This document shows positions 50,099-52,087 of a stretch of 64,000 nucleotides of DNA, piece after piece. A model generated the notes under the pieces. It had not been told where the DNA came from and made no database searches. It worked only from the letters and a program-made list of their open reading frames with translations. How positions within the stretch are numbered: the first letter of the stretch is position 1; the number at the start of each line of letters is the position of its first letter. The DNA is from Thermodesulfobacteriota bacterium. GTDB lineage: Bacteria > Desulfobacterota_D > UBA1144 > Nemesobacterales > UBA2774. Position numbers and translations under genes: made by a program. Location of the stretch: the NCBI GenBank assembly GCA_040754335.1, contig JBFMCV010000004.1:1-64000 (forward strand), in the 5' to 3' direction.

Positions 50099-51730
50099 TC
50101 ACCTGAAAAAAGGGAAAAAAGGACTGGAACCGCCTCCGGTCGAGCCTCCCGAGCTTCGTTTTATCGACTGTTTTACACGGTTTGAAATCTTGCAGTTCCC
50201 TGAGCTCTCCACCCTGGACTGCAGGTAAAGCGTCCTTCCTCCGAGGCTTCTCGACAAGCTGACGTTGATAGTGGCTTTCCCTGTCGAATCGGCTGTAGCC
50301 GTGCCGAGTGATGACGGCCGTCTGAGGTCGAGCGATTTCCCGCTGCAGACACCCGATGTGATCCTTGTCCTGCCGGTGGACGTCGAATAGTAGAAGGTCA
50401 CGCGAGATCCCCGCTGTGCGCCGGTCACGGTCAATGTGTTTCTGACGCCGGCGGTGCCGGGATTCAAAGTGGAAAGGGTCGGGTTCGCCGATGGGGGAGG
50501 AGTGGGTGCGGGGGGCGCAACTGGAGTCGGTACTGGTGTCGGGACAGGCGTGGGCTGGGGCAGCGAGCTCTTGTCCACGATCTTGAATATCTCCCCGTCC
50601 CTGTCGACTATATAAATCTCCCCTTTATCGTCCTCGCCGAAAGACGAGATGTTGTTGATGGTTTCCCCGGTGATCGGCTTGAGCTCTGCAGTACGGTCCG
50701 TGAACTGCGTGACTGTGTTCCCGCTCCTGACGAACGACCATATCTTGCCGGTGCAGAAATCGCCGAAGAAATAGGTTCCGTCGAGCTCCGGTATCGCGGC
50801 TCCCCTGTACACATAGCCTCCGGTCACGGAGCAGTTTCCTCCTGAATGCGTGTAATCGTGGAGTGGAATTGTGAGCTCAGGCGAGTTACAGGTGCATCCC
50901 GAGAGTCCCGTGCACTCCTTGCCTTCCATGCAGCGCCAGCCGTAATTCTCACCGCCCAGGCTGTTCCCCGGCTGGAAGCTTATCTCCTCCCTCGACCCCT
51001 GTCCGACGTCCCCTATATACAGGTCGCCGTTTAACCGGTCGAAGCTGTACCTCCAGGGGTTCCTGAAACCCACGGCCCATATAGTGTCGAGGAAATTGGG
51101 TATGCCGCTGAAAGGGTTGTTCGCCGCGGCCGAGAACGTAGTCCCGTTTCCGACATCGATCCGGAGCATCTTCCCGAGCTCGGTCGTCCCGTCCTGCGCC
51201 CTGTTGCCGGGGTCGAAAGAATCCCCGCCGTCTCCGAGGCCGATGTAGAGGTGATCGTCGTTCGGGCTGAACGCGAGCATTCCTCCGTTGTGGTTCGAGA
51301 AGGGCTGCGCGACCGTCATCATGATCAGCTCGCTGCCGGGGTCCGCCACGTCCGGGTTGGCCGAGACCTTGTATCGGGCGATGACCGTGTTTCCGGAATT
51401 GTCCGTGTAGTTGACGTAGAAATAACCGTTACTCGCGTAGTTCGGGTGAAAGGCGAGTCCGAGCAGGCCCCTTTCACCGCCGCTCCCCACTTTGGGATCA
51501 ATATTTAAAAAGGGGGTGGCGAGTACTGCGCCGTTCTTGATTATCTTGATCGTGGCCGTTCCCTGCTCGACTATGAAGAGACGGCTCGAATCCCCGGCAG
51601 GGGTTGTCAGGTAAAGGGGCTGCGAGAAGCCCCCCGCTACTTTGACCGTGGTGAGCTCCGCACCCGGTGAGGCATAAGCGGGTAATATCGCCAGTACGGA
51701 GATGATAAGGAATTTCAGATACGCGCTCAT
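50099..51730 (-). CDS. Secreted PQQ-dependent sugar dehydrogenase-like beta-propeller protein
   Basis: This is a secreted protein, 543 aa from ATG 51730 (GGGGG 8 nt upstream). A signal peptide covers residues 1-20 (AILPAYA cleavage). A glucose/sorbosone dehydrogenase six-bladed propeller spans about 25-375: ERGLLGLAFHPNY, NHNGGMLAFSPND, GFRNPWRYSFD, GEIYIVDRDGEIFKI. A Pro-Thr repeat linker (PTPVPTPVPTPV, about 378-400) leads to a C-terminal Ig-like/beta domain ending in a Gly-Ser-rich FFPFFR tail. Activity with PQQ is family inference; no PQQ synthesis gene is in the window. A c-di-GMP class I riboswitch sits in its leader. Confidence 0.88.
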   Translation of the reverse strand: MSAYLKFLIISVLAILPAYASPGAELTTVKVAGGFSQPLYLTTPAGDSSRLFIVEQGTATIKIIKNGAVLATPFLNIDPKVGSGGERGLLGLAFHPNYASNGYFYVNYTDNSGNTVIARYKVSANPDVADPGSELIMMTVAQPFSNHNGGMLAFSPNDDHLYIGLGDGGDSFDPGNRAQDGTTELGKMLRIDVGNGTTFSAAANNPFSGIPNFLDTIWAVGFRNPWRYSFDRLNGDLYIGDVGQGSREEISFQPGNSLGGENYGWRCMEGKECTGLSGCTCNSPELTIPLHDYTHSGGNCSVTGGYVYRGAAIPELDGTYFFGDFCTGKIWSFVRSGNTVTQFTDRTAELKPITGETINNISSFGEDDKGEIYIVDRDGEIFKIVDKSSLPQPTPVPTPVPTPVAPPAPTPPPSANPTLSTLNPGTAGVRNTLTVTGAQRGSRVTFYYSTSTGRTRITSGVCSGKSLDLRRPSSLGTATADSTGKATINVSLSRSLGGRTLYLQSRVESSGNCKISNRVKQSIKRSSGGSTGGGSSPFFPFFR

Positions 51731-52087
51731 GACATATACCCCCATGTGCCAGTCCCTTTATCCGTGGGCAAACAGGAGCTGCGGCGTATCCGCAGATTCG
51801 TCCACACTTCGGTAACCAGTCTACCCTAGGCGCTTTCAGGCCCTTAGGTCTTGGGTTTTGCGTCCCACCTTTTCAGATGGTTTGCCGTTTCGGATTAGGA
51901 CATTGTTTTGTATATGCAAATAATAACATCACTATATATTGCAATCAACAAAAATTTATGAAGAGATCCGGCACCATTCGGCCGGTTTGCCCTTGCGGAA
52001 TATTCGGTCATATTGTTATATGCCGTACCAATGGAAGGGCCGGATAACGGGCCGGTCCGATTGATAAAATAACAGGGAGGGATGCCG
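51731..52087. other. Divergent leader region with riboswitch on the minus strand
   Basis: This stretch between the PQQ-type dehydrogenase and the reductase gene carries the c-di-GMP riboswitch (51800-51892) with a hairpin CTGCGG...CCGCAG (51779-51795) downstream that may be the expression platform. The right part (51893-52081) is AT-rich and must hold the reductase promoter; nothing else is recognisable. Confidence 0.6.
51800..51892 (-). promoter_or_regulatory. Cyclic di-GMP-I (GEMM) riboswitch
   Basis: Read on the minus strand the leader shows, in order, GGCAAACC (from 51886), AUCUGAAAAGGUGGGACGCA with the GAAA-type tetraloop stem and the conserved GGGACGCAAA, GACCUAAGGG, the paired GCCUGAAAGCGC-type second helix, GGGUAGACUGGUUACCGA ending near 51809. 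Each element matches the class I c-di-GMP (Vc2-type) consensus in sequence and order, including the tetraloop-receptor pieces. It lies 70-160 nt upstream of the secreted sugar dehydrogenase start. A short hairpin (51779-51795) downstream could be the switch's expression platform; whether c-di-GMP turns the gene on or off cannot be read here. Confidence 0.93.

Follow-up and report, generated by a model that had tools for sequence, protein, structure and literature searches.

A c-di-GMP-I riboswitch upstream of a gene for an exported propeller protein in Dadabacteria

Results

The window, the whole 64,000-nucleotide stretch of DNA analysed here, carries on its minus strand a gene for a propeller protein that has no adjacent same-strand partner and is preceded by a leader with a riboswitch aptamer (Table 1). 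The earlier note had the limits of this gene right. The longest open frame begins upstream, at an in-frame ATG at 51745 which was seen in the window's genome only; unlike this ATG, the start at 51730 and the G-rich Shine-Dalgarno (SD) stretch before it are conserved in the orthologs. The hydrophobic N-terminus was read by eye as a signal peptide, and it is followed by the propeller, a Pro-Thr-rich linker and a C-terminal β-rich domain. The AlphaFold2 model of the protein has a mean pLDDT of 86. The description of an exported, Pro-Thr-linked propeller encoded behind a riboswitch leader is supported.

Table 1. Features of the propeller gene and its leader, in window positions.
Feature	Position	Strand	Basis
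Promoter-like TTGATT-17-TATTAT, TG before second hexamer	51920..51948	-	Consensus scan
GUCC, 5' strand of extended P1 (P0)	51898..51901	-	Invariant in six orthologs
c-di-GMP-I (GEMM-I) riboswitch aptamer	51808..51896	-	RF01051; conservation before orthologs
GGAC, 3' strand of extended P1 (P0)	51800..51803	-	Pairs with GUCC in all six
Predicted swing strand UUUGCC..CGGAU..GGGAC (putative anti-aptamer)	51752..51772	-	Six-ortholog pairing and folding
G-rich Shine-Dalgarno stretch	51739..51743	-	8 nt before start; 7–9 nt in six orthologs
Exported GSDH-fold (HHIP-like) propeller gene, 543 aa	50099..51730	-	PF07995, E 7e-40; orthologs
Six-bladed propeller domain, residues 26–387	50570..51655	-	AlphaFold2 blocks mostly 85–97 pLDDT; Foldseek
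Pro-Thr-rich linker, residues 389–413	50492..50566	-	Sequence; low pLDDT at 399–413
C-terminal β-rich domain, residues 414–530	50141..50491	-	tblastn matches in L207, L195

The RF01051 covariance model, run over the whole 64 kb window, matched the leader along its full length (model positions 1–87) with 69.5 bits and an E value of 1.5e-11, against a gathering score of 35 bits, and this was the only Rfam match in the window. The assignment to the c-di-GMP-I class made in the earlier note is thereby confirmed; the position it gave, 51800–51892, differs by a few bases from the limits set by the model. The aptamer lies 77 nt upstream of the gene start, and all the conserved motifs that had been listed for it were found in the same order. 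A GAAA tetraloop closes P2, and the six orthologs all have it. Its receptor departs on the 3' side from the consensus UAUGG, reading UAGGG in the window and UAAGG or a more divergent sequence in the orthologs. The nucleotides of the binding pocket, as read from the alignment, are present: G20, the A that follows GC in the GACGCAAA segment, and the C of ACCGAA. A candidate second aptamer copy at ∼51960–52000 (GGGCAAACC) gave no RF01051 match even with permissive filters and was rejected.

Upstream of the aptamer, the promoter-like site lies in a region that appears conserved in the orthologs by eye; the consensus scan returned two sites on both strands against 0.9 expected by chance. Further upstream, ∼98–110 nt from the aptamer, window positions 51990–52012 hold a dyad around GAATATTC (GACCGAATATTCCGC) that all six orthologous leaders keep with small variants; the G005 copy is perfectly palindromic (TTACCGAATATTCGGTAA). 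The dyad may serve as an operator for the divergently oriented alcohol-dehydrogenase gene at 52082.

The close relatives of the window protein that carry names are Candidatus Dadabacteria MAGs. Orthologs share 80–84% identity in three genomes of the same genus and 67–69% in two further genera, and comparison of their leaders bore out the aptamer, which precedes the orthologous gene in all six genomes from the three genera (the window's, G001, G002, G003, G005 and G006) at 72–80 nt from the start codon. In a fourth genus (g2), the G012 ortholog (68% identity) retains the gene order thiC, propeller gene, alcohol-dehydrogenase gene, and its leader is short, with an ordinary GGAGG site and nothing recognisable of the aptamer. 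Members of g2 have almost no c-di-GMP-I switches and mostly a single GGDEF domain; G012 itself has five GGDEF matches, one of which is a short fragment. Outside the lineage, an association of switch and propeller was sought and rejected: no c-di-GMP-I match was found at any of 77 more distant protein relatives in the genome collection, mostly Planctomycetota, among which loci truncated ahead of the gene carry less information. Presence before six of six orthologs and absence from G012 and the 77 relatives indicate that the association is lineage-specific, having been either gained in, or lost within, this family of Dadabacteria. The element is very probably a functional c-di-GMP-I riboswitch acting in cis on the single exported propeller gene.

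The earlier note regarded the product as a PQQ-type sugar dehydrogenase, an identity that is doubtful. Among solved structures, the Hedgehog-interacting protein (HHIP) is nearest by both sequence and fold, followed by PQQ sugar dehydrogenases; in the Foldseek comparison, PQQ enzymes, E. coli Asd among them, gave a target TM of about 0.81–0.84. Aligned with E. coli YliI, the protein keeps His147 and Arg223-Asn224, and non-matching residues stand opposite ALKDK and RIRD in an alignment at 20% identity. The Lys and Arg-x-Arg of these segments we take to be PQQ contacts, with residue roles from soluble glucose dehydrogenase. No PQQ-synthesis gene was recognised in the window's own genome: PqqE had sub-cut-off matches only, as in all control genomes, and PqqC had no match in a search in which no positive control rang. 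That the protein is an active PQQ-dependent aldose dehydrogenase, oxidising extracellular sugars under c-di-GMP control, is the less probable reading; the GSDH family match, the retained catalytic His and Arg-Asn pair and the resemblance to the Asd fold speak for it, and the changed contact positions, the closer HHIP structures and the PqqE and PqqC results speak against it. Also in its favour, PQQ is in some cases acquired from other producers by the cells that use it. On balance we lean slightly towards a non-enzymatic propeller, that is, a binding or matrix protein, a role at least as likely as that of an enzyme. As a separate observation, yliI of E. coli K-12 (L166), a member of the GSDH family, adjoins the biofilm regulator gene bssR and lies near the c-di-GMP genes pdeI and dgcI; this proximity is possibly a coincidence.

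Between the aptamer and the start codon lies a predicted swing strand, whose sequence would allow it to base-pair with the aptamer's 5' strand (GUCCU..UCCG..GGCAAA); its GCCCAC part is also able to pair with the SD. The swing-strand pairing is retained in 89.5% of cells across the six leaders, a figure that does not exceed 58% once the partner is slid out of register. The duplex energy is significant against shuffled sequences in the window leader only (p 0.018; threshold p<0.05). Covariation was set aside as proof of the strand, the signal being not significant in six leaders that are too few and too similar. By nearest-neighbour energies, a model that excludes tertiary contacts and ligand, the anti-aptamer fold is favoured over the aptamer by 0.8–10.3 kcal/mol in the unliganded RNA. 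In the models of the aptamer state the SD is paired in all six leaders, with a partner that differs between orthologs, and in those of the anti-aptamer state it is comparatively open. With RNAs that stop at the start codon, opening the SD costs more in the aptamer-locked than in the free state in every one of the six leaders; once the RNA is extended by 18 or 36 coding nucleotides, this difference shrinks or reverses in some of them.

These models suggest the following course. When no ligand is present, the strand at 51772–51752 would pair with the 5' side of the aptamer and leave the SD comparatively open; with c-di-GMP bound, the aptamer and the extended P1 would form, the swing strand would be released and the SD would become paired, so that the propeller gene would be turned down. 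Control may be exerted at the level of translation, which we hold with less certainty than c-di-GMP as the ligand, and the modelled SD pairing in the aptamer state favours an OFF switch; repression by c-di-GMP is, on these models, the somewhat likelier sign.

Precedent permits either sign. The best-known GEMM-I switch, Vc2 of Vibrio cholerae, has been described as turning translation OFF (PMC9262584), and other c-di-GMP-I switches that precede exported adhesins are ON switches, such as Bc2 before the gene for a collagen adhesion protein of Bacillus thuringiensis (PMC4933901). The opposite arrangement here, an ON switch in which c-di-GMP frees translation (or transcription) of the propeller gene and the product simply serves biofilm formation or attachment, in line with the assumption of the earlier note, has the example of Bc2 on its side, and the sister switches described below precede pilus and polysaccharide genes. 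Such genes are usually raised by c-di-GMP. We nevertheless consider an ON switch the less probable arrangement, given the SD that is paired in the modelled aptamer state of six leaders and comparatively open in the anti-aptamer state, and the precedent of Vc2.

Control by termination was also weighed and rejected. Several described GEMM-I switches act in this way, and a terminator scan picked up a hairpin (CTGCGGATACGCCGCAG) at 51795–51779 with a T-containing tail. An aptamer-controlled attenuator is nonetheless improbable, as the scan gave two sites against a chance expectation of 0.7, the T run is short and broken, and the hairpin stem is lost in G002, G005 and G006.

The 3.26 Mb genome contains nine c-di-GMP-I switches, eight besides that of the window. 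The diguanylate cyclases looked for elsewhere in it are represented by six GGDEF domains, and the four for which the motif was read all have the canonical GHxxGD. A search for EAL domains, positive in control genomes, gave none in this genome. Nucleotide 20 of the aptamer selects the ligand, G for c-di-GMP and A for cGAMP, and the Hypr enzymes that make cGAMP have a Ser where canonical GGDEF domains have an Asp (PMC6456294). With position 20 assigned by comparison with the published G20/A20 work, a simple pattern found G in 49 of 54 aptamers of the family, and the remaining five show the same GGC by eye. The G at the ligand-selecting nucleotide, here and in the relatives, points to c-di-GMP and not cGAMP, and together with the canonical GGDEF enzymes it suggests that c-di-GMP is the ligand. 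That the aptamer is instead a cGAMP sensor of the GEMM-Ib type, for which Geobacter offers examples with the same fold and similar targets (pilM, exported proteins), is very improbable, since the A at position 20 that marks GEMM-Ib is a G in the window and in every readable family aptamer, A20G alone converts a cGAMP switch to a c-di-GMP switch (PMC6456294), and the GGDEF domains read carry the canonical Asp rather than the Hypr Ser.

The sister switches in the genome and its family precede pilM/N/O (L014), a PilZ-aminotransferase-acetyltransferase fusion (L010), a LuxR-type regulator (L013) and a TPR protein (L016). In G001, G005 and G009 a polysaccharide-export operon, named by eye, stands behind a switch. 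Other targets in the family are exported proteins with a DNRLRE-like N-terminal region and a Pro-Thr linker, to which a beta-helix-like region is added in the G006 and G007 members (domains by eye). The G007 member of this group (L195), itself riboswitch-controlled, has by tblastn the C-terminal domain of the window protein as well. The recurring domain and the sister targets support a common exported-protein programme, and they do not give the sign of control. The best explanation of these findings is that the propeller gene belongs to a nine-switch c-di-GMP regulon of the Dadabacteria family.

Three further observations concern these loci. A subtilase-like exported protein of the same genome (L207 1384–1701, G000:C3) carries the same C-terminal domain and a Pro-rich linker as the window protein does, and no c-di-GMP-I match was found at its locus. 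L012 (G000:C2:219466-219551) and L013 (G000:C8:53167-53252) have nearly identical c-di-GMP-I leaders, and the genes that follow are unrelated to each other, a 145-aa ORF with no Pfam match and the LuxR-type regulator, respectively, as if the leader had been copied. The aptamer of L017 (G000:C5:32878-32964) scores just 42.5 bits, with GGGAAGAAAA replacing GGGACGCAAA, and its counterparts in G001–G003 carry the consensus; L017 is perhaps a decaying switch.

Discussion

The propeller gene is a new target for a known riboswitch class; its direction of control, its enzyme activity and its role in attachment are matters that we infer. Nothing relevant on a c-di-GMP riboswitch with a glucose/sorbosone dehydrogenase, or on such a riboswitch in Dadabacteria, was found in the literature searched. 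The element resembles Vc2 and RF01051 in its aptamer fold, binding-pocket nucleotides and position in the leader, and presumably also in P1-based switching to an alternative pairing, and it differs in its target gene, in an extended P1 of four invariant pairs and in the receptor variant. The Geobacter GEMM-Ib switches share the fold and likewise stand before pilM and exported-protein genes, with A20 where the element here has G20 alongside canonical GGDEF enzymes. As with Bc2, one c-di-GMP-I switch serves one exported surface protein, but Bc2 acts on transcription, as an ON switch that has a terminator, and no convincing terminator is present here. With the PF07995 proteins (E. coli Asd and YliI, soluble glucose dehydrogenase and human HHIP) the product shares the six-bladed propeller and, as in the enzymes, the His and Arg-Asn; in contrast to the enzymes it is closer to HHIP, has changed PQQ-contact positions and bears an extra linker and C-terminal domain. 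The name sugar dehydrogenase should therefore be used with caution when members of this GSDH subgroup are annotated.

The earlier note tied the protein to a biofilm or attachment programme. A surface-life programme is plausible from the pilMNO, PilZ, polysaccharide-export and exported modular targets, and the propeller protein itself may have a role in attachment. The switch-less ortholog in otherwise syntenic surroundings in one genus provides a natural comparison.

For the biology of this uncultured lineage, the locus provides a direct, testable cis link from c-di-GMP to one exported propeller protein, and together the nine switches mark out a c-di-GMP regulon of small size, with pili, PilZ, polysaccharide export and exported proteins. 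A more specific proposal, which we regard as speculative and rather unlikely, is a Dadabacteria-specific regulon of riboswitch-controlled exported modular proteins with a common C-terminal domain, among them an HHIP-like non-enzymatic propeller made at low c-di-GMP. If true, a catalytic fold would have become a matrix or binding protein under the control of a signal.
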